Source: Tubulanus polymorphus
Lineage: Eukaryota; Nemertea; Palaeonemertea; Tubulaniformes; Tubulanidae
Reading direction: 5' to 3'
Assembly (NCBI RefSeq): GCF_964204645.1
Contig: NC_134031.1
Span: forward strand, 18,287,307 to 18,351,306
Length of the DNA: 64,000 nt
Part shown: positions 521 to 42,745 of the stretch, piece by piece
How the letters are laid out: every line of letters begins with the position of its first letter
Position numbering within the stretch: position 1 is the stretch's first letter
Notes under the pieces: generated by a model
What the model was told of the DNA's origin: nothing
Seen by the model: only the letters and a program-made list of their open reading frames with translations
Database searches by the model: none
Made by a program: the position numbers and the translations under genes

Positions 521-775
521 AAAAAGACTTGATTGACGTAACAACGATAGAAGTACCGGTAGGTCAGACTGCTCGATTAACCTGCTCCGTACGGGGCAGC
601 GGACCCTTTAAAATCACGTGGACTAAGATCGACGGTCAGCTACCAGCTGATGCGATCATAAACGACAGAGTTCTGATTTTGAATAATGTTAAACACGAAG
701 CTACTGGTCGATTCATGTGCATCGCCGAGGGGCCGTTCGGAACGGCGAGAGGATTCATTGATTTGATCGTCACAG
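521..775 (+). CDS. HSPG2: Perlecan exon, Ig1
   Basis: Acceptor CCTTAG, donor GTAAGA, phase 1 at both ends. Reads VPVGQTARLTC, then DGQLPADAI, then TGRFMCIAEG: a complete I-set Ig domain. Confidence 0.88.
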
Positions 776-3700
776 GTAAGAGGCAGTAAATCTAGGTAAA
801 CTCTTATTGGCGGTTTATGGGTTCCTTATTCTCTTTACTTGCTTTGTCCTCTCTCAAAAATAAATACAACATCCTTTGTAAAATGAAATGATTCCTTGTA
901 GTTATTCCCATTCCCAACCCATTCCTCAATGGTGCCCGGTTCTATCTGAATTTATGAGTTGCAAGTATTCTGTTTAAATGACTCTTTCGGGAATAAAGCT
1001 GCCAACTGTCCCTGATTTTCACGGAAGAACCCTGATAATAAACCTGGTCTGTTTATGCTGAGCATGCTGTCTTAAATGGCGTCCCTGAAGCAATTATCTT
1101 GAATCCCTGAAAAGAAATGTTTATTGCTTGAATTTTCTCTACTGGTCCCTGATTGAAGTTGGCAACTCATTCATTGATCTAGAGTGAATAAACGATATAC
1201 TTGTAACTTTCTTTATCTGCTTTATATATTTTATCATGCATCACATCTTCATCTATTACTCTCTCTCTCTCTATCTCTGCGTGACCCGCGCGCTACGTGT
1301 AGGAACGCTTCCTCTACCGACGATCGAGTTCACGCTCGGCGGTACGATCACGCTCGTCTGCGAGCCAAAAGGTCCCGGCGAATTCTCGATCACGTGGGAG
1401 AAAGTCGACGGAACGTTGTCGGAGTTGGCGATCATTCGCGATCGTATTTTGAAAATAACGAACGCCCGAGAACGAGACGCTGGACGATACAAATGTACAG
1501 CGGTGAACGAAGAAGAAACTCAGGAGATATTCATCGAAGTTACGATTAAGAAAAGTAAGACGAAAAATGGCATTATTTCTTCTATTCTCTTCATACTTTA
1601 TCCTCAACCAAACCTCAATAATTGTACGGGTGACAGTTTTATAGACTGGTTTCTAGGGTCCATAAACCTGCATTTCTGATTTTGGTCTATACCTCAAGTT
1701 TGACATCTAGATCCAGTTTCACAATTTTCAGTTAAGTTTTAGTGAGATTGGAAATCAGTTTATTGTCAATGTTTTATTTATGAGCCGAAATCTTAACTCA
1801 CAGCTTTGGAACTGGTTCATGTGTATCAGACATACGTGCGGCTATCATATGCTCTCCCTACCAGTGGAATTTGCACTGATAGTGGAAAGTTTTTTTTGAG
1901 AATTTGGCTTTGTTCCGGGCAGCCAGTATCTTTACATGCTATACAAGGCTCAAGGAATCATGAGGCTAAACTCCATTCCCCTTAAACTAGTCTACAAAAC
2001 TTGCCCCTTGAGATCTATGATTATTTGCGATTCCTTTAAACGAACCCCGCCTCATCTTTTCTCTTCATTAAACGCGTTTCCTCTGTAGAACCTCCTCTGA
2101 TTCCCGTGCACGAAGTACAAGAAGGTGATAGCGCGCGTTTGACTTGTCGTGTACGAGGCACTGGACCGTTTACAATCACTTGGTTTAAACAGAACGGCCG
2201 TTTACCGACGAACGCCTTCCCGAGCAATGGAGTGTTGGATATCGACGGAATAAAACCGAGTGATGAAGGCAGATATATTTGTCGCGCTGTTGGACCGCGG
2301 GGAACTCAAGAAGCGCTCGTAGATGTTAGGGTTTTAAGTAAGAGGCAGATGTTCGAATTATTATGACACCTTTCACAATTCTGTAGATATTTAGAAAATA
2401 TTTCTTTTCTTAATGTAAAAAATTATCTATATCCCAATAATTTGATCTTTTGATCCATCGGTAATGGTGCATTTTCCCATAGAATTTTAAAAAATGCAGT
2501 AAACCTTGGTCGACTTGAAATATTTGGACAAGCAAATTGAGTCTGAGATATAGATGATCTTATGCATCATATTTCTGTACTATGTTAAAGAACAAGTTTT
2601 ACTGTATTTTGTATGTAAATATTTCAAATCTATCTCCCATCAATTTATAATCTAAAGACCATTGAACTAATTCTTTTCCCATTCCCTCTTTCCCTCCCAC
2701 CTGCATCCCCTCTGTCTTCTATCTTTGATTATTACGTTTCTCAGGAGGTCCAGTAGTTCCCCAGATCGATGTTACATATGGAGGGCGAGCGGTGTTAGTC
2801 TGTAATCCACGTGGCACCGGTCCGTTTACAATAACCTGGCAGCGACTGGACGGCGTAGTCCCATCGTACGCCATCCAGGATCAAAGAAGACTTATATTTA
2901 AAACGGCTCAAACTGTTGATACAGGCAGATATGTGTGCGTAGCTATCGGACCAGATGGTTCCAGGCAAGATATTTATATAGAATTAACTGTTACGGGTAA
3001 GGTTTGGAATATTTTGATTATTTCTGTTTCAATCTTAGTCGCATGGTTTTTCAAAGTGAAAATCATCAGAATTCTTCCTGCACTAAGTAGTAACGACTAA
3101 TCAATGATGTGATCCCACATTTGAATAATGTGATCCTACATTTTGTTCTACGATAATATTTGTTTGTTTTTATTTTGGTCATATTTTACCATTTGTATTT
3201 TTAGCTCTTATTGAATGAACATATCAATATGCACCTGGATCATTTGTTGCTGTATGATTATGTTCTATTTTCAGGTTCTCCCCCAAAAGTCTCAAAGTAT
3301 GATGTCCAATATGACCAAACTGCTCAACTGACCTGTAATGTCAGAGGACTTGGTTCTTATACGGTGACCTGGCAAAAGGTGGGAGGCAGTTTACCATCTC
3401 GCGCTTTGAGAAGAGACAGAACTTTAGAAATTAGAAATGCTAGAAATGAAGATGAGGGCAGATATCATTGTATAGCTATTGGTGAAAATGGCAGGCGGGT
3501 TGATGCCTTTGTTGACCTTGATGTCTTAGGTGAGTTATAGTCATCAAAGATTTCAGAAATTAATTTTCATGATGAAACCAATGACCTTTGATACAAATTA
3601 TTTGAATGTTTGATTGGATAAATCTTGTTTTGATAAATCTTCTTTTCACTTTTTCAGGATCAGCACCAACTGTATCCAAATATGATGTTGGATATGATGA

Positions 3701-6700
3701 AACAGCTACATTGACATGTAATGCTCAGGGTCTAACCCGTTATACGGTGACCTGGCAGAAAGTTGGAGGCAGTTTACCATCTCGGGCTTTGAGAAGAGAC
3801 AGAACTTTAGAAATTAGAAACGCTAGAAATGAAGATGAAGGCAGATATCATTGTATAGCTATTGGTGAAGATGGTAGAAGAGCTGATGCCTACGTTGACC
3901 TCAATGTTATTGGTAGGAAAAGTTCCCGAATTCATGATGCCTTCATTAGAAGTTCTTTGAGTCCACAAACTTGGAAAAATTTCTTCTTTTTCAGGAACAG
4001 CACCAACTATTTCAAAGTATGATGTCCAATATGATCAAACTGCTACTTTGACCTGTAATGCTCAAGGTCTCACCCGTTACACAGTGACCTGGCAGAAAGT
4101 TGGAGGCAGTTTACCATCTCGTGCTTTGAGGAGAGACAGAACTTTGGTAATTAGAAATGCTAGGAATGAAGATGAGGGCAGATATCATTGTATTGCTATT
4201 GGTGAAGATGGTAGAAGGGCTGATGCATACGTTGACCTCAATGTTATTGGTAAGAGAAGAAGTTCCTTTATTATAATGCGATGCCTTCATAAGATGTGTA
4301 TGAGTCCATAAACTTGGAAAAATGTTCACTAACTTTTCCAGGATCAGCACCAACTATTGTGAAATATGATGTCCAATATGACCAAACTGCTACATTGACC
4401 TGTAATGCTCAAGGTCTCACCCGTTATACGGTGACCTGGCAGAAAGTAGGAGGCAGTTTACCATCTCGCGCTTTGAGGAGAGACAGAACTTTAGAAATTA
4501 GAAATGCTAGAAATGAAGATGAGGGCAGATATCATTGTATAGCTATCAGTGAAGATGGTAGAAGGGCTGATGCATATGTTGACCTCAATGTTATCGGTAA
4601 GTTATCCTCACTTTCCTGGTAAGGGTAATCTTCATTAAAAGTTCCTTGAGGGCACAGATTTGGAAAAATTTCTCTTTCTTTTTCAGGAACAGCACCAACA
4701 ATTTCCAAGTATGATGTCCAATATGATCAAACTGCACTTTTAACTTGTAACGTCCAAGGACTTGGTTCTTATACTGTGACCTGGCAGAAAGTTGGAGGTA
4801 GTTTACCATCTCGCGCTTTGAGGAGAGACAGGACTTTAGAAATTAGAAATGCTAGAAATGAAGATGAAGGCAGATATCATTGTATAGCTATCAGTGAAGA
4901 TGGTAGACAAGCTGATGCATACGTTGACCTCGATGTTATCGGTAAGTTATAAACACAAAGGTTATCTGAAATTGATTACCATGATACTGATGACCTATGC
5001 AGATATTTCTTTAAGTTTTTTTATGCATATTTGGTAAATATTCTTTATCTTTTTCGTTAATATTACTTTCTTTCAGGAACAGCACCAACTATTTCCAAAT
5101 ATGATGTCCAATATGATCAAACTGCTACTTTGACCTGTAATGCTCAAGGTCTCACCCGTTACACAGTGACCTGGCAGAAAGTTGGAGGCAGTTTACCATC
5201 TCGCGCTTTGAGAAGAGACAGAACTTTAGAAATTAGAAATGCTAGAAATGAAGATGAAGGCAGATATCATTGTATAGCTATTGGTGAAGATGGTAGAAGG
5301 GCTGACGCATATGTTGACCTCAATGTTATTGGTAAGTTATACTCTCTTAGACTCCTCGTTAGAGTAATCGTTATTAAAAGTACTTTTGAGTCCACAAACT
5401 TGGAAGCATTTCTTCTTTTTTAGGAACAGCACAAACAATTTCTAAGTACGATGTCCAATATGATCAAACTGCTCTTATAACTTGTAATGTCCAAGGACTT
5501 GGTTCTTATACGGTGACCTGGCAGAAAGTTGGAGGCAGTTTACCATCTCGCGCTTTGAGAAGAGACAGAACTTTAGAAATTAGAAATGCTAGAAATGAAG
5601 ATGAGGGCAGATATCATTGTATAGCTATTGGTGAAGATGGTAGACGAGCTGACGCATACGTTGACCTCAATGTTATTGGTCAGAATTGTACCATATTTTA
5701 TGAGATGATGCCTTCATAAGATGCATTTTGAGTCCATAAACTTAGAAATATTCTTGGAAAAATATTCTCACTTTTTCAGGATCAGCACCAATCATTTCCA
5801 AGTATGATGTCCAATACGATCAAACAGCAACCTTAACATGTAATGCTCAAGGTCTCACCCGTTATACAGTAACCTGGCAGAAAGTCGGTGGCAGTTTACC
5901 ATCCCGTGCTTTGAGGAGAGACAGTACTTTAGAAATTAGAAATTCACGAAATGAAGATGAAGGCAGATATCATTGTATAGCTATTGGTGAAGATGGTAGA
6001 CGAGCTGATGCTTATGTTGATCTAAATGTTGTTGGTAAGTTATTTTAAATTTGACTGACGCTAAAGAATTTAATATAAAGTTCTTTGAGTTTTTGATGGA
6101 AATTTCATTAATATTTCTTTCAGGAACAGCACCAACTATTTCCAAATATGATGTCCAATATGATCAAACTGCTACTTTGAGCTGTAATGCTCAAGGTCTC
6201 ACCCGTTATACAGTGACCTGGCAGAAAGTGGGAGGCAGTTTACCATCTCGTGCTTTGAGAAGAGACAGAACTTTAGAAATTAGAAATGCTAGAAATGAAG
6301 ATGAAGGCAGATATCATTGTATAGCCATTGGTGAAGATGGTAGACGAGCTGATGCCTACGTTGACCTCAATGTTATTGGTAAGAATTGATCCTTAAATTG
6401 TAATGTGATGCCTTCATAAGATGTGCTTTGAGTCCATAAACTTGGAAAAAATTTCTTTTCACTCTTTCAGGAACGGCACCAACTATTTCCAAGTATGATG
6501 TCCAATATGATGAAACTGCTACATTGACATGTAATGCTCAGGGTCTAACCCGTTATACAGTGACCTGGCAGAAAGTGGGAGGCAGTTTACCATCTCGCGC
6601 TTTGAAGAGGGACAGAACTTTAGAAATTAGAAATGCAAGAAATCAAGATGAAGGCAGATATCATTGTATAGCTATTGGTGAAGATGGTAGACGAGCTGAT

Positions 6701-9700
6701 GCTTATGTTGATCTAAATGTTGTTGGTAAGTTATTTTAAATTTGACTGACACTAAAGAATTTTATATGAAGTTCTTTGAGTTTTTGATGGAAATTTCATT
6801 AATATTTCTTTCCTTCAGGAACAGCACCAACTATTTCCAAATATGATGTCCAATATGATCAAACTGCTACTTTGAGCTGTAATGCTCAAGGTCTCACCCG
6901 TTATACAGTGACCTGGCAGAAAGTTGGAGGCAGTTTACCATCTCGTGCCTTGAGAAGAGACAGAACTTTAGAAATTAGAAATGCTAGAAATGAAGATGAG
7001 GGCAGATATCATTGTATAGCTATTGGTGAAGATGGTAGAAGAGCTGATGCCTACGTTGACCTCAATGTCATTGGTAAGAATTGATCCTTAATTTGTAATG
7101 TGATGCCTTCATAAGATGTGCTTTGAGTCCATAAACTTGGAAAAAATTTCTTTTTACTCTTTCAGGAACGGCCCCAACTATTTCCAAGTATGATGTCCAA
7201 TATGATGAAACTGCTTCATTGACATGTAATGCTCAGGGTCTAACCCGTTATACAGTGACCTGGCAGAAAGTTGGAGGCAGTTTACCATCTCGCGCTTTGA
7301 AGAGGGACAGAACTTTAGAAATTAGAAATGCAAGAAATCAAGATGAGGGCAGATATCATTGTATAGCTATTGGTGAAGATGGTAGAAGAGCTGATGCATA
7401 TGTTGACCTCAATGTTATTGGTAAAAATTGTGCCTTAATTTATGATATGATGTCTTCATAAGATGCGTTTTGAGACATTCAATTTAGGAAAATTCTTGAA
7501 AAAATCCTCTCACTTTTTCAGGATCAGCTCCAACTATTTCAAAGTATGATGTCCAATATGATCAAACAGCTACTTTGACATGTAATGCTCAAGGTCTCAC
7601 CCGTTATACGGTGACCTGGCAGAAAGTAGGAGGCAGTTTACCATCTCGCGCTTTGAGGAGAGACAGAACTTTAGAAATAAGAAATGCAAGAAATGAAGAT
7701 GAGGGCAGATATCATTGTATAGCTATTGGTGAAGATGGTAGAAGGGCTGATGCCTACGTTGACCTCAATGTTATTGGTAGGAAAAGTTCCCGAATTCATG
7801 ATGCCTTCATTAGAAGTTCTTTGAGTCCACTAACTTGGAAAAATTTCTTCCTTTTCAGGAACAGCACCAACTATTTCAAAGTATGATGTCCAATATGATC
7901 AAACTGCTACTTTGACCTGTAATGCTCAAGGTCTCACCCGTTACACAGTGACCTGGCAGAAAGTAGGAGGCAGTTTACCATCTCGCGCTTTGAGGAGAGA
8001 CAGAACATTAGAAATTAGAAATGCAAGAAATGAAGATGAGGGCAGATATCATTGTATAGCTATTGGTGAAGATGGTAGAAGAGCTGATGCCTACGTTGAC
8101 CTCAATGTCATTGGTAAGAATTGATCCTTAATTTGTAATGTGATGCCTTCATAAGATGTGCTTTGAGTCCATAAACTTGGAAAAAATTTCTTCCTTTTCA
8201 GGAACAGCACCAACTATTTCAAAGTATGATGTCCAATATGATCAAACTGCTACTTTGACCTGTAATGCTCAAGGTCTCACCCGTTACACAGTGACCTGGC
8301 AGAAAGTAGGAGGCAGTTTACCATCTCGCGCTTTGAGGAGAGACAGAACATTAGAAATTAGAAATGCAAGAAATGAAGATGAAGGCAGATATCATTGTAT
8401 AGCTATTGGTGAAGATGGTAGAAGGGCTGATGCCTACGTTGACCTCAATGTTATTGGTAGGAAAAGTTCCCGAATTCATGATGCCTTCATTAGAAGTTCT
8501 TTGAGTCCACTAACTTGGAAAAATTTCTTCCTTTTCAGGAACAGCACCAACTATTTCAAAGTATGATGTCCAATATGATCAAACTGCTACTTTGACCTGT
8601 AATGCTCAAGGTCTCACCCGTTACACAGTGACCTGGCAGAAAGTAGGAGGCAGTTTACCATCTCGTGCTTTGAGGAGAGACAGAACTTTAGAAATTAGAA
8701 ATGCAAGAAATGAAGATGAGGGCAGATATCATTGTATTGCTATTGGTGAAGATGGTAGAAGAGCTGATGCATACGTGGACCTCAATGTTATTGGTAAGTT
8801 TGATGTTTTCTTTTCTAAGTTATTTAACTTTTATCTATCCAAATCAAAAATTTTTCTTATATTCAATAATGTATGCTTGCTGTTATCTACACTTTGTGAT
8901 GTTTGAGCTTTTCATGTCAAAAAATGTGGCCCAATATGTTTTTCTGTGTCGTATCTCAGGCTCCGCACCTACAATAACCTCCCTTACGGTTCCGTATGGA
9001 CAAACAGCCGTGCTTACTTGTCAAGTTCGTGGTTCTGGTGCATTTACGGTTAACTGGCTGAAAGTCGGTAGCCGTCTGCCATTAACAGCACAAACAATCG
9101 ATAACAAATTAGAAATCGGTTACGCTCGTAAGGAATATGAAGGTAGATATCAGTGTGTGGCTGTAAATGAGGCTGGTGAAGTACTGAAAGGATTCGTTGA
9201 TTTAACTGTCGTCGGTAAGAATTGACTCATTCATTCATCCACTCACATCCCATCTCTTATTTACTTGTGCTTTTTTTATTCTGCATTATTTCCTGCTTTT
9301 TGTTCTCTATAACTTTCTGTGAATGTTTGCTTATGTGTTGCTTGTTTGTCCGTCACAGGCTCCGAGCCTTCCGTATCATCTTATGAAGTTCGTTACGATC
9401 AAACGGCGACCTTGACTTGCAATGTGCAAGGTCTGACCTCTTACACGGTGACCTGGCAGAAAGTCCGAGGCAGTTTACCATCTCGCGCTTTTAGAAGAGA
9501 CAGAACTTTAGTAATCAGAAATGCTAGAAATGAAGATGAAGGCAGATATCATTGTATAGCTACTGGGTCTGATGGTCAAGTGAATGAGGGATATATTGAC
9601 CTCAATGTTGTAGGTTTGTATGGTTAGAAAATTTAAGAGAAGGGAGACCCGACCAATTAACACATCGGCTTCCAGCAGATGATTGCTGTGAGGAGGATAT

Positions 9701-12700
9701 CGCAAAAATCATTCAAATAGAATACGATTTAACTAAGACTTAGAACTCTTCTTAGAGCTTTTCTAAATCTCAGAATTTGTCTCGGAATTAATGATGATTT
9801 TGCGGTTATCATTTGTTTCAGGTTCACCTCCGACGTTTTCGACGTATGAAGTACAATACGGTCAGACAGCATCGATTACGTGTAAAGTTCCTGGTCTCGA
9901 GTTGTACTCAGTTCGATGGCTGAAAGTCGGCAGTTCGTTACCGCAGAATGCGAACGTACGAGAACGAACGCTGATCATTTCTCAAGCTCGAACGGAAGAT
10001 GAAGGTCGTTATCACTGTATAGCGACGACTCCCGACGGGAAGCGCATCGATGCATACGTAGATCTCACTGTTAAAGGTAACATTTCAATCCTCAATTCTC
10101 TCCTCTTGTTTCTATTAACATTTTAAACGTAGCACGTTTCGGGTCGGTTATAAAGTTCAGGATCCGGTTCGATAAACCTACAAAATCGTATCTCGTAGAT
10201 TTCTAGATTTCAATGATTTTGATAATGTACAATGTTTCATTCGAAATTCAGAAACAGAACCATGTTCTATCAAATTGGTTAGATTTCAGTTTTTGGCTTT
10301 AATTTAAGTAAGCCTTCTGAAATTTTAACTCTAAAATGACGAAAACTAAGGAATTTGGTCTTGAAGTTGAATGATTAAAAAATAAACTAATTCAGACTCT
10401 TAAGGCATGAGTTTTATCCTGAACTTAAGAATTGGCTTAATCGGTTGGCGTCCTTAGTAAATGTCTATCCTGTCTTTGTCTTTTAACCTGAGTGTATTTT
10501 GTTGTTTAACCCATTCTCTGTCTATCTGTGTTGTTTTGTTGAAGTCTATTGTGTGTATTTCTGTCTCACTTGTCTCATCGCAATCATCAGGCTCTGCTCC
10601 TACTATAACCCCATACGAGGTGATTTACGGGCAGACGGCTTCGCTGACTTGTAACATACGTGGAGGATCAGCAGGCACGTACACGTTCACCTGGAAGAGA
10701 GTCGGTAGCCGGTTGCCAGCTACAGCCGTACAACGAGACCAAACTCTATTGATAACTAGCGCTCGTTACAACGATGAGGGAAGGTATCATTGTATCGCGA
10801 CTCGACTAGATGGCGAGAAATTTGAGGGTTATGTCGATCTTATCGTTACCGGTAAGAAACTCGAAATATTTACGAGTTACACAGTGCAGCCTTGACATGA
10901 ACGAAACCCCTTTCACTGTTAGATATTATACAGTTAGACTCCTACTTACTCGATATCAGTCAACTGCTCAAGTTTTATGTGAATTCTACTAATTTCTATC
11001 TATTTCCCTCATTCTCGACTTGGTGGAATATTTAGAGCAGTCGACAAGATACTGAATAAGACGGGAGTTTACCATTTACTGGACTCACTTCATATGAATA
11101 TCTTAAAGCTCTGGACCCAGTTCCACAGTTCTGTTTTAAGATTTGAATCTCATTGAAAAGGAACTAATTCTAACTCAGAGTTACTCACTACTGTGGAACC
11201 GGGTCCAGTTTCACATTTTTCAAACAAAGATACAAATGTTGAACTGAGTTCCTAGAGAAAGCCAGTCACTGAAATATATTTCGCACAATTTTCAAGATAT
11301 CGAACTTGTTAGAATATATTGATCTATATACATTTAACTGTGTAAACACATCACTGGAACTGCTGCATGTGAATTATCTCTACCCCTGTTAGGCACTCCT
11401 GCACCTAAAATCTCAACTTACGAAGTCGAGTACGGCCAGACAGCGACAATGATCTGTAGCATCGAAAATGAACGTAAAACTTACACAATACGTTGGCAGA
11501 AAGTTAGTAAAGCTGGGGGCGCGTTACCTCAATACGCGATCAGACGAGATCGGCAGTTAATTATCAGAAACGCTCGAACGGAAGATCAAGGTCGTTATCA
11601 ATGTATCGCGATTGATGCAGACGGCAAACAGTTTGAATCGTTTATTGATTTCACTGTAACCGGTGAGTTTAAACTAACCGAACTAACAGTTAGAACTTGG
11701 TTTGATCGGATCTTTGAGTTAAAAGAACGGAAAGAGTTGATAACTGATCACGCTTACTCACTACCTTCCATTCCTTTTATTCCCTTCCTCTTTATGTTAT
11801 TTCCTCATCCTCCGCAGGCAGGTATTCAAACCTGATCTCTTGTCTCAGTCATGACTCGAAACCTTGCCTGACTGACCCGAGTGCTCAGGTATATAACATG
11901 ATTTCTGATTGGCTAATGATACTATCATTGATGCTAAATCAGGCAGGGATTTGAATCATAAGTCTTAATGTCATTAGTTTCGAATCCGTGCTGAGAGAGG
12001 ATGGCTATTCCTTTTCATTTTAAAACTTTTTTCACTTTCATTTCTTGTTTTCTTGTTTTCCTCACATGCACTAAAAGGTTCTGCACCTCCGAGTATTACT
12101 AAATACGAAGTACAATACGGACAGACGGCCATGTTGACTTGTAAAGTAACTCAGACCGATCCGTCTGCTCGGTTCGCCGTCGTCTGGCAGAAAGTCGGCA
12201 GTAATTTACCGAATTACGCCGTACAAAAAGACAACGTGCTGGAAATATCTCAAACGCGGCGTGATGATGCCGGTAGATACCGCTGCATCGCTACCAGTCC
12301 GGATGGGGGACAAATTGATGCATTCGTTGATTTGACTGTCATTGGTAAGCTTAATCGGTTCAGGTTCAGGCTCATAAGACCATTCTACTGACTAGGTTCC
12401 CTTTTCCAAGTATACTTGGACTTAGATTGGATTCGAGGGACAGATTTCGTGTATTTTCAATAGGAGAGTGACTTTATTATCTTATGTCTGTCTTATGTGT
12501 GTCTTAATTGTAAGCACTTTGTTTGTAAAACCCATCACTACATGTCATATGTGAGTCATGTTTCTCCTCTCTCCAAACCTGACTACAGCAACTATTTGAG
12601 AGTAGTTTGAACTCTTTGTGAGACCTCCAACTACTGCCTAATGATCAAAATACTCTGAAAATATAGAGAACATTCAATTATACTACTACTCTTGATATCA

Positions 12701-15700
12701 AAATACCCATATTTTGGTGAAAACTACTGCAAATAGAGATATCAGGTAGTCTTGTCATCCTCTTCCCCTGATTTGTATTTCAAATAGTTCTGTATACCGC
12801 TATATTGCATGAATATCTATATCTGTATATATATATATATATATATAGGTTCGGCTCCTGTAACTATTTATGACGTGCGTTACGGGCAGACGGCAACTTT
12901 AACATGTAGCGTTCTACTGAACGGTGATTATACGATCAACTGGGTCCGTCTGGACGGACGTCTGCCGGCGAACGCGATCATTCGCGATCGTATTCTAGAA
13001 ATACCGCAAGCTCGTACCGCCGACGCCGGACGATATCAGTGTATAGCTCGAGATAAAAATGGCCGCCAGATTGATGTTTTCGTCGATCTCCGCGTAACAG
13101 GTAAATACGCTCGGTCACATGACCAGTTCTCGGGATCAGCCATTTTGAAATATATTAGTATTGACTGAGGGATTTTGACAAATTTCTTATCAGTAATCAG
13201 TTGTTCAGAGTATCATTCAGTATTAGTATCACATATAACATCTTGAATTATGAAATTATATCCTATATTACGTATGTGAAATTATGATATCATATTTATT
13301 CATGCATAATTAATATTTAAGACCCAAGTTTCATGTTTTGAATAAGCATATTCATCAAGCCTTTGAAGAGCCAACACAACTTTACGGCCTGTTTGCACAA
13401 TTCCTGTGTCAGAATTGATACCTTCAATCTGAAGCCTGCTTTAAGTAAAGGAGCTGACTCTAAATTTTCCTTCAATATGTATGTGTCGTAGAAATTTGGA
13501 AGAAAAACCTTTTCATAAATAAAAGGCTGACCTGACTAAACCGCTTAACTTATTAAGGGTACATTTACTTATCGAAAAAGCTTAAAGTCAGATTCATTCC
13601 TAGTTTATTTTCAATGAAACTACAAGTTTTGATATCGAATAACTCGATAAATTGTGTTGATTACTATTCCTAAGAAGAAATGACAGGTATTCAGTCCTGT
13701 GTTAACTGAAACTTTGGTCTTAAACTTTGCTTGTTTGTTTATATGTATATACTATATATGAATATGTATGATATATTCGTAGGTACCCCTCCTCCTATCC
13801 CCTCGTTTGAGGTGCGCTACGGTGAACCTGCTCAGCTGGTCTGTAACGTACAAACTAACGGTCAATATTCGATCGTTTGGCAAAAAGTCGATGGCACGTT
13901 GCCAGATTACGTGATAATGCGCGACCGTGTGCTAGAAATCAGACAATCAAAAACCGAAGACACCGGTCGATACCGTTGCATAGCAACGGGACCAGACGGT
14001 CAAATTCGCAGGCTCGATTTAGATTTGATTGTTACCGGTAAGTTTGAAGAAAATTGATATCTAACAGTAAAGTCACTAGTGTCTGCCATTTCATTGAGAT
14101 TGTAGCATGCAATTCTTAATAAATTGCCATGAAACTTAGCTGAACTGGCTAGGTCGATCTCGGCCTGAGTGCATCGGTTCCACTCTTATTGAAAATGGGG
14201 AGCATCGGCAATTGAATATGGCCATTAGGGGGCTAGTTGCTCAAAAGTTGGTTAGAGTTAACCAGTGGATAAATGCCATTTATTACCGTGGTATTTGTCC
14301 ACCAGTTAACTCTTACCAACTTTTGACGTACAAGCCCCTGATGGTTTCTATGAAATACATGGTATATGTGTTACCTTTCTTCAATGTCTTCAGCCCGTGA
14401 CTGTCCATGGCATTGCCACGGCATTGCCACAATTTAGCATTTAGGATTTTTCATGTGGTGCTCCAACATTTGCGTTTTGAAGAGAGATATTCAGAAACTT
14501 TTCATTTACGTTTGGAATGTTTGTTATTTTGTAGGTTCCGCGCCCGTTTTAACGTCTCGTCGAGTTCCATACGGGCAGACGGCGACCTTGAACTGTAACG
14601 TCGACGGTTCGGAACGTTATACGATCACGTGGGAACGAATTGACGCTCAGTTACCGGTGAATTCGATCAGACGCGGAAATTCACTAGAGATTCATTCGGC
14701 TCGTACCGAGGATGAAGGTCGCTATCATTGTATCGCGCTATCCCCAGACGGACAACGATTAGATGCATACGTCGATCTTACTGTGTATGGTGAGTCGACA
14801 AACATCCATTAGTAATAGTTGTAAACAGTTTTTCTCTTCAGTTGAAATTTTTGTCTAATTTTGTCCTATCCTCGGTTGATATCACTACAGGAGAGGTTCC
14901 TGGTGGGATTGAGCAACCCCCTTCGATTATAACTTTAATATTTTCAAATAAACTCTGAAGATGGGTCGAAGGATTCCACCTGAAACTTATGAAAAAAACA
15001 ATAACAGTTGTGTAAATTAATATTGTGGGTTTCTCTTAATGATATAAGTAACTTTGAATATTAAGAACATTATTTCTGAATCTTGCAACTCATTGAATCT
15101 CATTGATAGGATCGGAACCGGTAATCACGGCGCGTGAAGTAAAACTAGGATCAACCGCCACACTCAACTGCAACGTACAAGGATCCGATTTCACGATCAC
15201 CTGGCAGCGTGTCGGAGCGCGTCTGCCCGTGAATTCTGCCACCCGCGGTGACAGCGGGTTAGAAATTCAAAACGCGAAATACGAAGATCAAGGTCGCTAT
15301 CACTGCATCGCTTCGTCAGCAGACGGAACTAGATTGGACGCATTTGTTGATTTAACTGTTGTCGGTAAGTTCGAAAATCTATCGCTTTCAGAAACCAACT
15401 ATTGGTTTATTGTTCTCATGGGGCCACTAAGTTAGAAGGTTTAAAGTGGCTAATAAGTAGAGCAAAAAAATGTGTCTATTTTGGCGAGATAGTCTTAACC
15501 CTTTCAGTGCTGACTGATTAATACCCTATAGTGCTGGAGATTATTTCAAAATTTAAAAAAAATTCCACCCTAGTGTGTTGAATAACGGGAATACCGCCAT
15601 AGTGCATCTACACCGCGGTGCAGTGTATCGTTAGTTACCAGTATTTCACTATGTTTGACACGTGCTGCCATTTTTCAATAGAGATAAAAACTTAATACTA

Positions 15701-18700
15701 GCAAAATCTATCACTGATTTATACACTGCACTGCGGTGTAGACGCACTGAAAGGGTTAAACATGTTTTGCTGTTGTTAAAGGGTCCTCACCGGCGGTTAT
15801 TGCGAAGAAAGAAGTCCCGTTCGGTGAAACAGCTCGGTTGAATTGTAACGTAGAGGGCGGTGACTATCAAATCACGTGGGAACGTGTGAACGGAGGGCTG
15901 CCGGAGAACTCTGCTGTATTGAGAACAGTTCTAGAAATCAGAGACGTTAAAATAGAAGACGAAGGAAGATATCACTGCACGGCTGTATCACCTACTGGGG
16001 AAAAATTAGACGCCTATCTAGATCTTACTGTTACAGGTGAAATTCTTCAAGTCATTCCTAAAGCGGGTGTCAATGTATTCTATAAAATCCACTTCTTATG
16101 TTCACGCGAAAATTTTCAAGATATTTGTCTGAATCGTATATGAAATGTTTATGATGTTTTTTGCAGGAGGTCCGGTACCGGTGAGAACGGTGAATGAAGG
16201 TGACAATGCGCGTTTGACGTGTAACGTCGGAGATGAATACACGGTTAGCTGGAGACGGGTCGACGCGGCGCTATCCCTCAATGCCGTCGTCGAGAATAAA
16301 CGTATCGAAATCCCGAACGTGCAAGTGGAAGATACCGGTCGTTACGAGTGTCTGTCTCGCAGCGCAACGGAAACGCATAAAGCGTACGTTGATTTGCTCG
16401 TCAAACGTAAGAATTTTTAGTCGATTTTTAGTCAGTCGTGTAGTTGCATGTATTTATTGTTATACCAAGTAGTTAGATTACTATAAAAGTTGTCAGAACT
16501 CCCATAACTTATAAATTGGAAGTTGAAGCCCAGTTGATAGAAAGTTTATCCAAAAAGCTTCATCTTGTTGTTCGCTTTTTGAGAAACTTAATCTTTAAAC
16601 TGTTGGATAAGTTGAGAAGTTAAGAGATTTTTCCCCTTTTCTTAAGTCTTGCTATTATTGCAGTCAAAGCTTAAGTTTCTTCATCAACTTAGTCGAAGCT
16701 CATTTTAGTTCTATAGCCAATCTGACGACTTAAGACCAGTCTAAGCTCATTTTGGTTCTATAACCAATTTAAAAACTTAGTACCAGTTTTATGATTGAAA
16801 CCATTTTCAGACTTTAATTCTAGACCGTAGAACTGGAATTTGGTCCTGATCTGATTTTTCTCGCCTGTTGAATTGATTTACTCAAATTCTATTTTCAGCT
16901 CGTGAAACGATACCGCGTACCGTCGTAACCGTCGGCGATACAGCACAAATAACGTGTAATACAAATGGCGCAGTTAGCGATCGTATAGAATGGAGTCGAG
17001 TGAACGGCCGTCTACCGAATAACGCTATAATACAGAACAGCGTCGTGGAAATACCGCAAGTGAAACTGGTCGATACCGGGCGTTATACGTGTATATCTAT
17101 AGCGACAGACGGCTCCAGAAAACAAGCTCAAGTCGATCTTATTGTCAATGGTCAGCTTTAACTATCCATAGATAAACAAAAACTTCCACGCAATCTATTT
17201 TCAAACAGTTTCAGGATTTTGCCTCTGACTTTTGCCTGAAAAACTGTTAGAAAATGAACGAGATATTTGACCAATAGTTATATTCTATCCACAAACTGAG
17301 GAAAACATCTTTCTGTTCTCTGTTTCTGTTAAAGATGAGATTTAGATGAATCCTGAAATTGTCAAAAAGATAAACTATATCTATTGTTATTTGTGGGATT
17401 AGGTTCTACACTGAGAGAGAATATATCAGTTTATCTCAGTCAGATTGATTGATTGTGATGTATATTTTTTGTTCACAGATCAATCACAAACTCCTCAGGT
17501 GAACGTTAAACTCGGAGATACGGCTCGATTGACGTGTAACCCACAGAAACGCGGTCCTCACACGTATCAATGGTTTAAACTCGGCGAAATACGCGCGATT
17601 AACCGAAATCCGGACCAGCGCGTTTTACTGATCAGTCGCGTCGTTGAGACTGACGCTGGTAGCTACACGTGTAGAGCTACGGGACCAGACGGAACTGAAG
17701 AGTTACCGATGATTATTAATGTATTAGGTTCGTGTAAAGTTTACCTTTCATCAAATCATTTGCTGTTCAATATGGGGCAGATCCATTAAAATCATAAAAA
17801 ATAGATTTTGCCTAAGGGGCTGATTTTCCACCACTCTCCTGCGGAATAGGGAGAAGTTGACAATTTCCGACCCAGGGGCTGCAGTTGCTCAAAAGTTGGC
17901 TCGAGCTAACCTGTGGACAAACGAATAGCACAGTTTTGCATGATTTACATGGCGTTTAGATTAAGCTTACGACTGAACGAAAACTGATTTGAAAATCAGA
18001 GATTCACTTTTTAGTGCAGAAATAGATTAACTATTGGAAATAATGATAATATGATGTCTGTATTTGTTCACAGGTAGCGGTGGAGGGAATGAACCGGAGA
18101 ACGGATACCCGTCTCACAAGGTCGGAGTCGGAGAGACGGCTAAACTAAAGTGCGACGTACAAGGCGAAGGTTTTCAGATCAGTTGGAGTCGTTCAGGAGG
18201 CACGCTGTCGCCGTACGCGATCGTTCAGGATCGCGTTCTCGAGATACGAGATGTCCGACCCGAAGATCAAGGTCGTTACGTCTGTACGGCCGTTGGTCCA
18301 CGAGGTTCGACTCAAGCGAAAATAGATCTATTCGTGATCGGTAAGATTCCAACGATCAGTGTTTCTTTATCTTGTCTTTAAATCAACTAAAATCAAATCA
18401 AAAACACAATATTCATTTATCGCACAAATTTACTAATGATCGAATGAGAAAGAATCGAAATCCTATTCTTCGCAAATATATTTATTTCACGAGCTTTTTA
18501 GTCGAAATATTATCGATAATTATCCGATCATCAATAGCCTTGATTAGGGTCACTTGATTGTGACCTTGTGCACCTCATATAAGCATCGTGACTCACTCAG
18601 ACCTCATTTGTGAGACTCCGTAAGATTGTGCTTCATTGAGACCTCAATTGTGCCTCACTGAAGCCTCAATTGTGCCTCACTGAAGCCTCGATAATGTCTC

Positions 18701-21700
18701 ACTGATTTCTCAATAGTGTGTTGTCTGAATGGCTCGGACCTTCAAACATTCTTTGAGAAATTGGGCCAGCCCTGGGCTGCAGTCTGTCGGAAACTGCAGT
18801 TTTCATCAGCAACCAAAAATCCTTGTAACAAAATTGGAAGTTAATTTAGAAAATTAACTTATTCAAAATAAAACCTGAAGCCATAGTTTCACAGTTTTCG
18901 GTGAATTTTAACTCTTAGAGCTGAATTGGTTTATTTCCAATGTTTTAACTCTGTGAACTGAAATGGTAGATGTGGAATTGGTTTCAGGAGATATTTTTGA
19001 ATTTCATGAATCTTTGAGGAGTGAAGATGCAGCCCTGGCATGTGATTGTTTGTATATCGCACCAATCAACCAATCATCTTTTCTTTCCTCTTTTTCCTCT
19101 ATTTTCTCTCGCTATAGACTCGCAACCAAATGCACCTCGTATTGTTGCGTTACCGGGACAACGAACGACGTTGACGTGCCGACTGACGGGTGTCGCTCCT
19201 CATTTCGTGACGTGGCGTAAACTCGATGGCGCGATGTCGAGTGACGCTGTCGAACGCAATGAGATTCTCGATATCTCGAACGTCGGTTCTCGAGATTATG
19301 GACGGTATATGTGTACGGTTAGATCGTCTGATGGTAGATCTGTTGATAGGTATATAGAGTTAATTAGACCTGGTAAGTTCCACCCTCCCCCTGCCCCTCC
19401 CCATCCCCTCCCCTCTATCTGGCTTCGGTAATATGTAGTTACAAAATGTTAGCAAAATATGATAGATGTGTCAGATATTTTTCAGTATGTACGCTGTGCT
19501 TATTTGAAATCTGGGCCAGCTTTCACAGAATCACGGCTCAGTTCTTAAAGTGGTCGCAAACCATAAGACTGGTATCAATCTCTTAGATTGGCTATATTTA
19601 GGTTTAGAATGGCGGACATCAGTGAGCTCACCTGTCAAACTTTACTGACAGCTGTGGGAATGAATCCAGTTCCCTACTTGTACAATCATAGCTTAGACCA
19701 GGCTAAGACCATCTAACCATAGCTCTATAGCCAATCTAACAACTTACAATCAGCTTTAAGATTCAAGACCACTTGTGGATTTGAGTGACGATTATTAGAG
19801 ATTTTGGTTTTATTTCAACCCCTGATTTCAAGCTCTATATCTTCGATATCTATATATGTGTGATTAGTGAATGATTTGTTTTAATACGACGCTTTGTGTC
19901 TATAATAAAACCTGCTGCACTGCTTCATGTCTGCTACGTGTGTGTGTATTGTATAATTATAGATACTCGACCGGGCGTAACAATCTCACAACCTCAATAC
20001 GAGGTGCACCTCGGTAAAACTGCCCGGTTACTCTGCGAAGTGCGCGATAAAACCGCCTCGACCGTCGTCTCGTGGAAACGTCCCGGCGGTAAACGGTTGC
20101 CCCCGTTCGCGATCGCGCGAAACGGATTGTTAGAAATTCGTCAGGTGACGTCGGACGACGCCGGTCAGTACGTCTGCCAGGTGACAGACACAACGGATAG
20201 TGGCGCCCCCTCGCGACAAGCGTTTACTGAATTAATCATCGTTGGTATGTAAAATGTTGTATCGGAGAAAAAAAGTGGAGTTTTCAGAAATGTTCGGATA
20301 TCAATCCATGAAAATCTTGATGAAAATATGGATTCTAGAAATAGGAATTAACTGTTAAGAAAAAACTCAAGTGGGTTTGGAAAATCTAGAAAAGTATGAT
20401 TTTGAATAAGCAAATTCTATTCAATGTCAGAGTGGTGATTTTGTCTGAATAGAAAATGATCACTAAGGATTTCTGGTGTAAGGTTGAAAGCTTGAATCTA
20501 AAATGAATTATTTTCGTTCAGCAGAATCAAACATGACTTAGTTTTAATCGTTGTGATGCTAAGATAAGAGAACGTTTTATGTTGAATTAAGTTTAATCTG
20601 TCTCTGGTTTTTTTTTTTTATAGTTTTACCCGAAGTTCAAGTCGGACCGAGTAAAAGTGTAACACGTTATATCGGAAACGATGTTGAACTACGTTGTGAT
20701 ACGACCGGGTCACCGGCTCCGCGGGTGTTCTGGGAGAAAGACGGAGGAACGTTACCCCCTCAAATCACTGTTCAAGATGGCCGTTTGAAGTAAGTTAACA
20801 GTGTCTAGAAATAGAGTTGATTGCAGGGAATAATATAACCATTCGGTTAGAAGTTGCAGCTTAGGCCAGTTAAGTTATATCTTTTGAATTTGAGGATTAT
20901 TCCCAAGCTTTTTTAAATGAAATGCTGTCAAGAAAAGCAAGTTAGATGCTTTATGCATAATACAGTTAAACCTAATCAAGTCACATTACTGAAGTCATCA
21001 CTATTTCTGAATCCCAAGTCGTCAGCGCATGATGATCATCCCATGACTTCATTAGCATCTGGCCTCTATTTATACTAGCCTCTGAATCCATTAATTTTGT
21101 AAGGTCTCTCGGTAAGGTTTTCTGCCGCTTTGATTTTTCTGAAACTTGAATTTATTTCGACAGGATTTTCAATCTACAACTGGTTGATTCTGGTCGTTAC
21201 TATTGCACGGCTTCAAACTCCGGAGGAAGCGACAGAGACTTCGTTCAGTTAAACGTTTACGGTAAAACGAGACGGTTTTCACTTCGTGAATTTGAAGTTT
21301 TTGTTAGACTCATTTGATGAATTGTTGTTTGTTAAATTTGTGAACTTGATTTTGTTTGTAGATCGTTCAACTGGACCCGATGAGAACTATTCAAACATTA
21401 CTCAGATTTCATCTCGCACTGAAACTGTGGCACTCGGTGATAAGGTTGACTTTACTTGTGAAGTGCAAGGTTTGTATCTAAATGGTTTGGGTTTTGCTTC
21501 AACAGGTTAACAGCCTATTGTTAATTGGCTTTTAGAAAATATAAGATATTAGTTATTCAAGATAAGATGTTCAATCCTGTTCATACGGCTGTTTGACTCA
21601 TAACTGAGAGGTCCCAGATTCACTGATGGTTTATCAGAATAAGTCTTGAGTTAAGTTGGTTCTCGCATTAAGATAACTGCCACTGATAAGCAATTTTGTA

Positions 21701-24700
21701 TCCAAAATTATAGCTAAGAAACTACAATTCAAAAAGGGTTTGGGATTCTTGAAAATATGGCTCCCGTAATTGTTGAAATATCTTGTTTATTTTCGTGATT
21801 TTGTGACTAAATCCTGTCCTCAGAGTGACACTTATTCATCGTCAAACTGATACAGACATCATCCTGTCTACTGTCATAAAACGTGTATTTCCAGGTACCC
21901 CTCGTCCTAAGATCCAATGGTTAAGAGATGGAGCTCAGATGCCACCATCTGCAATTATCGAAGACTATAAACTGATTATACCGAGCGTTGCTAAAGAAGA
22001 TGAAGGTCGCTATCGATGTATGGCTAGAAACGTTGCCGGAGCCGTGCAAGCCGTCATTGATCTGGTCGTTAAAAGTGAGAACTGATTCTAGAAAATGCGA
22101 TCTAAAATGAGCAAAACCATCCTTGATTTCCATAGAGGAATTACCAGGGCCCAGTTGTGCAGTTATGACTTAGTCCATAAGATCTTTAAAATGGTCTTTA
22201 ATTGTTAATCTAAGCCATCACTGTGCAACTGATCACTGATATCTATATATCACTTTTGAAAATGGCTCATAGTATTTGAGTCATAACATGAGGATAATTC
22301 TTCTTACAGTTTCTTTTGATTGTCAATTTTCCATCTGGCTTTACATACAATGTCTCTCTGAATAAATGTCGATTGCTCAGGATTCAGTCCTGGTTGTTTT
22401 GTCTCATCCCTCTATGACCCGACTGATTTCCTGTATATTTTCTAGCTCCTGATTATCCCCTGGCAACTGAGTCAATAATCCAAACGGCGTCAGTCGGTTC
22501 GAGAGTAGACATTAAATGTCCGAATCCAACGGACGAAAATGGCGTGATCTGGACCAAAAAGGATGGACCACTCCCCAGGTATATAGATAATAGACTTAAG
22601 GATTGTTTTAACTTGTCTTATAACCTATAACTAAGAGATTTTCATCAATTTCCTAGCAATTGCCTTTAAAGATGATAAATCCTTGATCGAGTTCTTCATG
22701 ATCGATGATTTTCATCTTGCAGGAAACACGAAATACAGAACGGTATTTTAACGATTGAAGGAATCACTGAAGATAACGCTGGAGTTTACGTCTGTAAGAT
22801 TCAAGGTCTGACGCAAGGTTCGGTGGAACAGCTTGTCGAACTGGTGGTCGGAGGTATGAGAAATATTGCCATATGCATATTTTGTAATCACAATCAATTG
22901 CAAAAATTGTAGCTCATGATATACTGTTGGAAGCAATTTTTGATTTTTGATTGCCGCTGCAAATTTATTTTGACAGGTTCTGGTTTTATTGCTGCGGCAA
23001 ATTTGCTTCAATTTGTCAAAAACAAAGTATTTAAAGAAAAAAAATGGTCACTCAGTAAACTATTGCTGCGGCTTTCCCTGCTGCAGTCGCTGCAGTTCCA
23101 GCGTCACTGCTATAATCGTGATGAATTTCAAGTTCATTGATTACTGTATTTGTTCGCGAACAGGCATTGGATATCGAAATTGGCAGATTGGCACGTGTTT
23201 CGCTAAGTGGGCATGTTGTCCCCTAGTTGTAATGATTGCATTGTTCTAATGGTTTCAGCATTGGTTCCGTATTTCAAACAGCAAGCGTCAAATTCGTACG
23301 TGTCATTCCCAACGCTACCCGACGCTAAACTGAATTTCGATGTTACGATCTCATTCTATCCGGAATCAGCAGACGGTAAGTATTGGGCAATAGTCTGCGT
23401 TTCAAAAATACCTGGACCCAGATCTATAAAAATAGTATAAGGAAATAGAAAATATTGTCAGATGAGACATTGATAAAAGTAAAGCATAACTTGCGACCTA
23501 AAAGTCCAAATCACACATTTTAGCATCGAAAATTAACTCATGGACCAAGTCCAATTTTGAGTGCTGTTTTATAGAGTTGTGATTTGATGATGTTTTGTTT
23601 TATTTCTCTGCTAGGTTTGATCCTGTATAACGGACAGTTCGAGAATGGTAACGGAGACTTTGTTTCATTCGGATTACAAAATGGCTATGGAGAATTCCGA
23701 TTCGACTGTGGCTCGGGACCTGCTATCATTAAGTCAGAAGGACCGGTGTCGCTGCAGAAATGGCACAAAGCTGAACTCAAACGAAATAAACGAAATGGTC
23801 AGATTTTAACTTTTGTGGAATTTGGTTTCCTCATTACAAAAATATATTTTTTTAAAATTTTCTTGAATGATTTGAGATGTTTTGTATCAATATAGGAACT
23901 TTGATCCTCGACGGGAAGAAGACAGTCGGTCAGTCTGAAGGTCGTTTCCAAGGCCTCGATCTTCAGTTGAACTGCTACGTTGGAGGTGTGCCCGAGTTCA
24001 ACAAAATCTCGAGGAAAGCCGGATTAACTCAAGGTTTTATCGGTAAGATATGAGAAAACAGTTAATCTAGGGCCACATCTCGAATTAGAGCGATGAAAAA
24101 GTTGAATTTGTTTATTTCCTAATATCAAGTAAAACTCAGAAAAACTCAATCATTTGAACTTAGACTTTTGATTGAAACCAGTTGCATAGAGAAGACTAAG
24201 ATTAAAAATTTATCGAATACCATCTTAGACAATCTAATAACTTATGACAGGACTTACAATCCTTCTTAGACTCAGGCATGTCCTGAACTTCATAGGATTT
24301 TGGTGATTTGATTTGTTTATTTTAAAAGGTGCCGTATCTCGTGTGGATATACGCGGAGTCCCGTTAGATATGAGCAGTGACTCAGAGAAATTAGCCGGTA
24401 TCACGGACTTTCCTGTTTGTCGGAACCGGCCCTGCAGGAATGGAGGCACGTGTATCCCTGCGAACACTGATATCGGGTACAGATGTAGCTGTTTACAGGG
24501 ATTTACAGGACTGACTTGTGAACTGAAGGGAGAAGGCTGCTTCAGAGGTGATCTCATAATTATGGGTAGAATTTGATGCGGTTATCAGTCTGGAGATATT
24601 GAAAAATGAACTAAATTTGAAAATGTTGTTGTTTTAGGCGCTTGTGGAGTCAGAGGAAAATGTTACGATTTACCAAACCAAGGAATACGCTGTGCTTGTC

Positions 24701-27700
24701 CCATTGGAAAATCTGGCAACCGCTGTCAGCAAGGTATCCCCTAAATGAATTCCCTGTGTTGTTTATTCTTTTTCAATCGATAAATTTTATTTTAGGTAAG
24801 GTCTTCTATATGTCGGTATCTTAGTGCTAAATCGTCAACTGTGGGTTTTGCTCAATACCTATTAAATACTGAGATCAATATCAGTCTACCAGTCATGGTA
24901 ACAATTACTACTGATGACATTGATTTTGAGTAAAAGCAATTTTGCATTGGAGACTACTGAAGGATTTTCTCACATTTTACCCTGCTCTGATAAATACAGC
25001 GCTGACAACTGACATATTTCATATCGAGTAATACCGACTCAATTTATTTGATGTGAACAGAAATATGAAAGATGTTACTGAAGATCTAACCATTGATTAC
25101 TGATTGATTCGAAAATTTTAATTCATATTTCAATGAAATATTCCAGACTTGTTACTGATAGCGTTTTTCAGAGGTTGGCAGCCCTGTAAATACTTCATTC
25201 ATTATTTGCAGGTGTAATCATTGAGGATCCTGCATTTGATCAGACATCGTATATAGCTTACGATCCGTTACAAGACGCGTCTCAGGGCGTAATGATTAAA
25301 CTACTGTTTAAAGCGAACACTTTAGACGATGCTATTCTGTTGTATAACGGTCAGAGACGCGACGGAGGCGGAGATTTCTTATCGCTGACGATCAGAGATC
25401 GACGCATCGAATTGCGATACGACAGCGGTTCCGGAACGGCGGTTATAACCAGTCAGAATCGCGTTCAAATCGGAAAATGGACGCGTGTCGTGGCTGAGAG
25501 GAGTCAAAGAGATGGAATGCTTACTGTCGATGCAGGAATGACTGTTAAAGGTATTTTAATGTTTTATTCTTGTTTTATATCGATGTTTTCTGTAGCTTTA
25601 AGTGTGGCCGATCGCGGGTGAATCCAGGGGTCACTTCCGACTGTAGTATCAACAGGAAAGGCCCGGCATTTTTCACTATGCAATAACTATCACAGACTCC
25701 TTTTAACTCGAATCAATCAGGACCAGTGATTTTTTTTTTCAAGTTAGGCCACGATTCAAGTTAGAATTTAATTCACATTCTGTTGCATTGTTTCTAAGAT
25801 TAGACAATATGACTTGAATCATTCAAGTTAATCCGTTTAGTGCGTCTACACCACAGTGCAGTGTATAAATTGGTGATGATCTTTGCTAGTACATTGCATT
25901 GCGGTGTACTGGATGTAATTAGGAATTAATCTATTGAAAGATGGCAGAATACAGTGAAATATTAGTAACTAACGATACTCCGCACTGTGGTGTAGATGCA
26001 CTAAGGCCGTATGCCGGTCATTTAATGTACTGGGGTGGACTTTTTTTGAAATTTTCTTATTATCTCCAGCACTTTCAGGAATTAGTCAATACTGAAAGGG
26101 TTAAGAGGAGTCTACTCTATATATTCATTTATTCATTAGTCGTCTGTTTCTATTTTCTCTTATTTCCACAGTTGCGAATCCCAGTTTTGAAGCAGGTATC
26201 TATACATCATCAACTAATTACTAATTAGTATTGAATTGTAGTATTCACCAGTAGAATTAACACAGTTAACATAATAATAGCGCTAATGAACAACCAGAAA
26301 TTTCAGCCAGTTTTAACGAAAAAAATTAACGCTTTAATTCAGTAGTTTATCATCAGAGGTGAATTGGCTAAATATCACGTAGTATAGTTTAGAATGAATT
26401 AAGTTGATTCGGTATTTAGCTTAAGTCCTTGATATTCGCGTTGCAATATTCATAGGATTCAGTTCTACGATGTTTATAGGACTAACTTACTTAAATCTAT
26501 GTCTTGAAATGATACCGTAGAACTGGATCTAGGACCCAGTTGAAAATGAACTTATTTCGAACCCAGATTCAAATTAAACTCATCTTAGACTAGTTTGTTA
26601 TGCATGACGCAAACAAGAAATTCTGATATTTTCGAAACCCATAGATTCAAATAGTATTTAAGATTTTGTAGTTGTTGTAGCCGAAGCATGATTTCGAATT
26701 TTGAAGGTGACGGGAATCAGGATATTTGGGAATTTTATTTATATTTATTCAGAATCTTGTACATTTTCGCTACCGGAACGTAATATAACATGTAAGTCAA
26801 TGCAAAGCACGAAATGTTCATTGATTTACATTTCATTTTGATTATTTTTGTTTCAGTTTTCTTCCTATCCAGCACACTGGTATTGTCATCATGTCGTCTG
26901 CACTTCTAAGATTCATCGATTCATGAAACTTTCTCTCTCTCTCTCCTGTTTTTGCTTTATCTATGTTCCTCTGTCGGTCGGACTCTGATATTATTTTCGA
27001 TGTCCTTTGATGCTTTCTGCAAATTTTTCACTTTATTTTTTTTTCATTTTTATTTTTTTCTGTCTGTGTTCATTTTCTACAGTTGTTCACGATAACGAAT
27101 CTAGAATTATTCAACTGAGCCTTCAAAACCTATTTGAGCTACTAGAACCAGTTCCGCAGTTCCGTCTTATGATTGAACAATTGTTTAAAACATTGAAAAT
27201 CAACTCATTTTAGCTATGAAGGCAAATCTAACTGTGAAACTTGAGTCTTGTAGATTTTAAAACCTTGGGTGTCACCAATAATTCAATATCCTTAAATCAT
27301 GATGAAGGTCACATTGTGCAGGTTTGATATTGCATTTTTGATAAGTGTTTTGAATTTGTGACCAATCTTTTAGATATTTTGCTGAATTGTTGACAATACC
27401 CTTTTCTGTGAAAACTATTAATGAATTTGGTATATCCTTCACTGAAAAAATACTTGAAATGCGGTGTTCTCTCTTTTCACGGTACCCGATAACTCAGAAG
27501 TTGTTCTATGATCTATAATGTTTTTGAATGGCATTTATTTCAGGTATCTCTCCGGGGAATATGGTTGGATTAAATCTGAGAAGGCATTTGTTCATCGGAG
27601 GTGTTAATCCGGATGAAGTAATCGCTCCGGGCGTTGGAGTTGTTACTGGTCTGAGGGGCTGTATCGGACAGGTAAACTAAATAGATTGGCAAAATCTTAA

Positions 27701-42249: not shown

Positions 42250-42620
42250 GTGGAAAGACGGCTCAGCGCTGGTAGCGTGGATGAGGACACGAGACGAGTC
42301 AGCGCTGGTAGCGTGGATGAGGACACGAGACGAGTCAGCGCTCGTAGCGTGGATGAGCACACGAGACGAGTCAGCGCCGGTAGCGTGGATGAGGACACGA
42401 GACGAGTCAGCGCTCGTAGCGTGGATGAGGACACGAGACGAGTCAGCGCCGGTAGCGTGGATGAGGACACGAGACGAGTCAGCGCCGGTAGCGTGGATGA
42501 GGACACGAGACGAGTCAGCGCCGGTAGCGTGGATGAGGACACGAGACGAGTCAGCGCTGGTAGCGTGGATGAGGACACGAGACGAGTCAGCGCTGGTAGC
42601 GTGGATGAGGACACGAGACG
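42250..42620 (+). repeat. 36-bp minisatellite, about ten copies
   Basis: Unit GGTAGCGTGGATGAGGACAC GAGACGAGTCAGCGCT with few changes. Because 36 is a multiple of three, long frames stay open on both strands; these are not genes. The unit contains a tRNA A-box-like GGCTCAGCGCTGGTAGCG at its edges. Confidence 0.92.
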
Positions 42621-42621
42621 G

Positions 42622-42745
42622 CTCAGCACCATCCTCCCACGGCAGGGATTCGAACCTGATGGCATCGCTACACTCAGCCACGGCATGTACCGGGGCAATC
42701 TCGATGCCATCGGGTTCGAATCCCTGCCGGGGGAGGATGGCTCAG
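42622..42745. repeat. Large inverted repeat with tRNA-like B boxes
   Basis: Arms 42622-42667 and 42702-42745 are imperfect reverse complements. Each holds GGTTCGAATCCCTGCC or its near complement, a pol III B-box-like word. A partial minisatellite unit follows. Looks like two head-to-head tRNA-derived sequences. Confidence 0.65.

Follow-up and report, generated by a model that had tools for sequence, protein, structure and literature searches.

Perlecan ties basement membranes to cells, and much of its length is domain IV. In human perlecan this domain holds 21 Ig domains, of which about ten central modules share a common pattern and have been suggested to derive from insertion by intronic recombination (PMC4398486). 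The number of perlecan Igs varies among species, mouse perlecan being without seven of the human ones (PMC6266596), and the longest domain IV among the perlecans studied by 2015 was that of Trichoplax adhaerens perl 1/2, with 36-40 Igs (PMC4398486).

The locus described here is from the nemertean Tubulanus polymorphus and was analysed within a 64,000-nucleotide stretch of the forward strand (assembly GCF_964204645.1, contig NC_134031.1, positions 18,287,307 to 18,351,306), referred to below as the window. Part of the window is occupied by a perlecan gene, in which 16 closely similar Ig exons stand side by side. In marker searches of the assembly, Neur_chan_LBD had 145 matches, which by themselves would suggest a cnidarian or a bilaterian in preference to a sponge, placozoan or ctenophore; COX1 had none, and neither had STING, innexin and Chitin_bind_4 in searches that lacked a positive control, the innexin result leaning weakly toward an anthozoan cnidarian.

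The exon array and its neighbours

A scan for Ig motifs and splice sites placed the array at window positions 3275-8793, where it comprises 16 Ig exons of 255 bp each, all in phase 1-1 and with an exon-to-exon spacing of 337-390 bp. These values agreed with those of the initial annotation, whose figure of about 1,360 added residues corresponds to 16 x 85. Tandem Repeats Finder assigned the array a period of 347 and a score of 6070, far above chance. The exons, all on the forward strand and numbered by their domains, begin with Ig5 (3275..3529), which is of the NVRGLGS type and is the most diverged member of the array, and continue with Ig6 (3658..3912), Ig7 (3995..4249), Ig8 (4342..4596), Ig9 (4687..4941), Ig10 (5077..5331) and Ig11 (5424..5678), the last being of the NVQGLGS type. 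They are followed by Ig12 (5780..6034), Ig13 (6124..6378), Ig14 (6471..6725), Ig15 (6819..7073), Ig16 (7166..7420), Ig17 (7522..7776), Ig18 (7859..8113), Ig19 (8202..8456) and, as the sixteenth, Ig20 (8539..8793).

The motifs TVTWQKVGGSLPSR and DEGRYHCIAI are present in 16 of 16 array exons, as had been claimed, but a third motif said to be common to all, KYDVQYDQTA, is exact in only 13 and occurs as a variant in Ig6, Ig14 and Ig16. Pairwise DNA identity between the exons ranges from 77.6 to 98.8%, with a mean of 90.2, and at the protein level the average is 93%; the 16 copies encode 12 different amino-acid sequences, one of them shared by Ig10, Ig18, Ig19 and Ig20 and another by Ig13 and Ig15. 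Each array domain has two cysteines and nearly balanced charges, and lacks an NxS/T site.

The array is preceded by four older single-exon Ig domains, Ig1-4 (536..2996, forward strand, as are all of the features that follow). On its other side is a diverged Ig exon, Ig21 (8960..9214), beyond which lies a seventeenth member of the array family, Ig22 (9359..9613), with 82% DNA identity to one array exon and 75% protein identity to the array consensus. A tree united the array and Ig22 in a single clade (support 96/98), and so the earlier description of Ig1-4 and Ig21-40 as strongly divergent needs amending for Ig22; the other flanking Igs have 34-61% identity to the array consensus. Fifteen older single-exon Ig domains (9822..20244) come after the array family, and three Ig domains, each on two exons (20671..22849), form the end of domain IV. 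The identity of adjacent Igs outside the array averages 44% (27-67%), versus 83-100% in protein inside it.

An alternative to a protein that carries the whole array is that the exons serve as a splicing cassette, being picked singly in the manner of Dscam or skipped in blocks in the manner of titin, and that no protein ever has all 16. With equal length and symmetrical phase in all of the exons, any subset would stay in frame, and there is a precedent for regulated splicing in the several isoforms of C. elegans unc-52 (PMC6266596). However, mutually exclusive choice among exons that encode near-identical, and in some cases fully identical, proteins would generate almost no diversity, and the introns are ordinary ones, with GT-AG at every intron between the 16 exons. 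We consider such a cassette unlikely. A variable cluster of the Dscam type was also considered as a class for the array and was rejected, the diversity of such a cluster being absent at a mean protein identity of 93%. Tuning of length through exon skipping is possible, because the phases of all of the exons match.

Origin of the array

The reading that we prefer, with a probability of roughly 0.85, is that a perlecan Ig exon was multiplied by unequal exchange, in units of one or two exons, and that the copies have probably since exchanged sequence among themselves under purifying selection. In this model, which is built from comparison of the copies, one Ig module, encoded by a 255-bp exon that is symmetrical (phase 1-1) and bordered by short introns, would have given rise to 16 adjacent copies and one displaced copy via repeated unequal recombination. 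Exchange among the copies, by gene conversion or further unequal crossing-over, would have followed, and purifying selection would keep every copy a working, near-uniform Ig fold. Since the exon boundaries are also the domain boundaries and the phases match, every copy that is gained or lost changes the protein by exactly one complete Ig with no frameshift, and the copy number of the array may still be able to change.

Several lines of evidence point in this direction. Some units are of recent origin: the introns that follow Ig17 and Ig19 (those preceding Ig18 and Ig20) are 100% identical, and the intron between Ig6 and Ig7 is 98% identical to both of them; 98% is also the identity of the two introns that follow Ig13 and Ig15, and the Ig18/Ig19 pair has a dS of 0.05. 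Similarity peaks at an offset of two units, where it is above chance for exons (p=0.002) and introns (p=0.013), four offsets having been tried, and the pairs Ig13/Ig15 and Ig14/Ig16 define a duplicated two-exon block of approximately 695 bp. In addition, which copy is closest depends on whether one exon half, the other half or the intron is compared; Ig9, for instance, is a mosaic whose 5' half is closest to Ig11 and whose 3' half is closest to Ig8. The PHI permutation test, which is also sensitive to uneven substitution along an exon, rejected the absence of recombination (p ~0.001-0.004), and did likewise on third positions alone. Together, the young units, the two-exon offset, the mosaic halves, the PHI result and the low dN/dS given below are accounted for by repeated unequal exchange and conversion under purifying selection.

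The ages of the copies bear on the initial annotation, which had proposed a recent internal expansion. Between array copies, dS has a median of 0.37 (0.05-1.30) and dN a median of 0.028, with a ratio of means of ~0.10, values that were obtained by NG86 on paralogues subject to exchange and that give relative ages only; part of the low ratio may stem from conversion rather than from selection on each copy. Third positions account for 56 of the 90 variable columns in the array exons, and the array introns are mostly only 55-80% alike (gaps counted). The copies are thus not simply new, because their synonymous sites and most of their introns have diverged with the amino acids held back. The proposal of a tandem exon expansion stands, and a few units are indeed young, but as a description of the whole array "recent" does not fit the median dS or the introns. 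A purely recent burst, in which the copies would be alike through youth, without exchange or constraint, would suit those adjacent units that are very close, such as Ig18 and Ig19 or those with introns at 98-100%; it is nevertheless very unlikely in light of dS values that reach 1.3, the strong differences between most introns, the dN/dS of ~0.1, the mosaic exons and the PHI signal. A claim of special selection for sameness was dropped, a dN/dS of ~0.1 being ordinary for a constrained protein.

Tandem repeats at 337-390 bp are an assembly risk, and the 100% identical introns after Ig17 and Ig19, together with one exact repeat of 282 bp, could suggest that the assembler duplicated units and that the true gene has fewer copies. 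However, exon DNA differs in each of the 16 units (maximum identity 98.8%) and no two whole units are identical, and the 282-bp repeat, the longest exact one in the array, is less than one unit long, so that an assembly artefact is disfavoured; ordinary long reads would span an exact repeat of this length in an array of 5.5 kb. There are no N bases in the window. Across the 268-Mb assembly an array exon had 17 DNA matches, all at the perlecan locus, and DNA and protein searches of the assembly found no array copies elsewhere, the close protein matches being at this locus only. Duplication by the assembler is, on these grounds, highly improbable, and unequal exchange among genuine copies continues to be the account that we favour.

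Domain context and predicted role

The domains around the array identify the gene. Upstream of the window, on the same strand, are nine LDLa domains, an Ig, two LDLa, an Ig and then laminin IV with laminin EGF exons (Laminin_B matches at contig 18270638-18277154, with EGF_laminin between them), and the Ig run itself matches Pfam I-set/Ig_3. Downstream of it, domain V LamG/EGF exons occupy 23575..29809 of the forward strand, with LamG at 23575-23892, 25190-25618 and 28704-29162 and EGF at 24307-24573; a PDB sequence search with one LamG exon returned agrin LG as the top match and had the perlecan LG3 peptide 3sh4 among its matches. Judged by this domain order, which matches perlecan domains II-V, the locus belongs to an animal perlecan (HSPG2) gene, as had been supposed, and represents the central part of its domain IV. 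That it belongs to some other long Ig protein, hemicentin or a titin-like one, is scarcely credible: hemicentin likewise has more than 40 Ig domains, but its Ig run would be expected to follow an N-terminal VWA and to have no laminin IV, LDLa or LamG domains beside it, and here LDLa, laminin IV, laminin EGF and LamG flank the run in perlecan order. Of the features of perlecan domain I, which are a SEA domain and heparan sulphate attachment sites, the SEA domain is reported to be missing from the perlecans of Nematostella, fly and worm (PMC4398486). Domain II, about 27900 to 18980 upstream of the window (contig 18259400-18268330), is seemingly enlarged, with 11 LDLa and 2 Ig domains, the human and Trichoplax counterparts having three LDLa and one Ig (PMC4398486).

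Ig domains were counted with an HMM trained on the Ig exons of the locus itself, and split domains were joined by hand; in two of these the profile missed the first half, which was instead picked out by eye in the ORF list. By this count, the window has the 40 Igs that had been claimed for it (37 single-exon and 3 split), and the locus has 49 in domain IV and 2 in domain II. Eight of the 49 span two exons. All 37 of the single-exon Ig domains at 536-20244 are in phase 1-1, whereas at either end of domain IV most Igs are spread over two exons, because of which the middle of the domain seems to be its growing part.

Structure prediction for the array domain Ig20 gave a confident Ig fold (pLDDT 92), and the second-best match of this fold in the PDB was perlecan Ig3 in its complex with nidogen (1gl4_B). 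A PDB sequence search with one array Ig returned general Ig neighbours, namely Robo, Dscam and contactin, which carry little functional information. As each exon supplies a whole two-cysteine Ig without an NxS/T site, the array is expected to form a uniform rod, and by analogy it would lengthen a basement-membrane core protein by a segment of ~1,360 residues. A role as a mechanical spacer would likewise follow from what domain IV is held to do in general. Transcription and splicing are presumed to be continuous over the locus and the product to be secreted; Trichoplax perlecan, which is made from two separate genes (PMC4398486), counts against taking one continuous mRNA for granted.

The remainder of the window has other features. 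Two ORFs (37982-38701 and 41206-41619) have KGGGKGGGK repeats, a Thr-rich tail and a hydrophobic C-terminus, and perhaps encode related secreted or GPI-type proteins. A 36-bp tandem repeat at 42256-42627 (10 copies, 95%) lies within long open frames (e.g., RVSAGSVDEDTR), and a 292-aa open frame at 46727-47602 is putatively BTB/POZ-BACK-like by eye. At 59953-64000 there is a satellite-like array of ~50-bp units (86 copies, with a higher-order period of 188) that runs off the end of the window.

Significance and comparison with known systems

Work on titin has led to the proposal that adjacent Ig domains diverge and thereby avoid long-lived misfolds (PMC4660218), although some folds tolerate identical neighbours, e.g., polyubiquitin (PMC4862688). 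The 16-copy block is notable because the titin work holds that adjacent Igs must diverge against misfolding, and its neighbours, up to 100% identical, allow the proposal to be tested directly on a secreted protein. It is conceivable, if doubtful, that exchange and selection here keep natural Ig neighbours 83-100% identical, contrary to the usual trend toward divergence, and that copy number varies between individuals, which would make the length of perlecan variable within the species. The array may also be a locus of variable length, suited to scoring in population samples. With domain IV being so much of the length of perlecan, the array also exemplifies the lengthening of a core matrix protein by whole domains with the frame intact.

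Human HSPG2 is alike in having tandem Igs between laminin IV/LE and LamG/EGF, and unlike in having 21 of them versus the 49 here, where array neighbours are 83-100% identical in protein. The initial annotation had measured the 40 Igs of the window against those 21, and the count is correct, but the comparison overstates the lengthening because Trichoplax has 36-40 Igs and because domain IV would still hold 33 here without the 16-copy block. In Trichoplax, moreover, there are two transcribed genes and no distinct central module group has been reported, whereas 16-17 of the 49 Igs here are one close family. The approximately 49 Igs of domain IV appear to be the longest perlecan Ig stretch reported.

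Further afield, in the triplicated region of nebulin, another giant among structural proteins, blocks of in-frame exons were tandemly copied, and people with additional copies have been observed (PMC11026289). Nebulin is, however, a muscle protein with 8-exon blocks in three copies, and here it is single Ig exons that are present in 16 copies, in a basement-membrane protein. The Dscam variable clusters are tandem exon arrays that encode Ig sequence (PMC3364881). Their exons are mutually exclusive and diverse, unlike the perlecan array exons, which are near-identical and each encode one whole domain. No such array had been described in the literature that we searched, in which subscription journals were thinly covered. 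A variable number of perlecan Igs, and this kind of event, are known; what is unusual, and new beyond the reports found, is the total of 49 and the uniform block of 16 copies.
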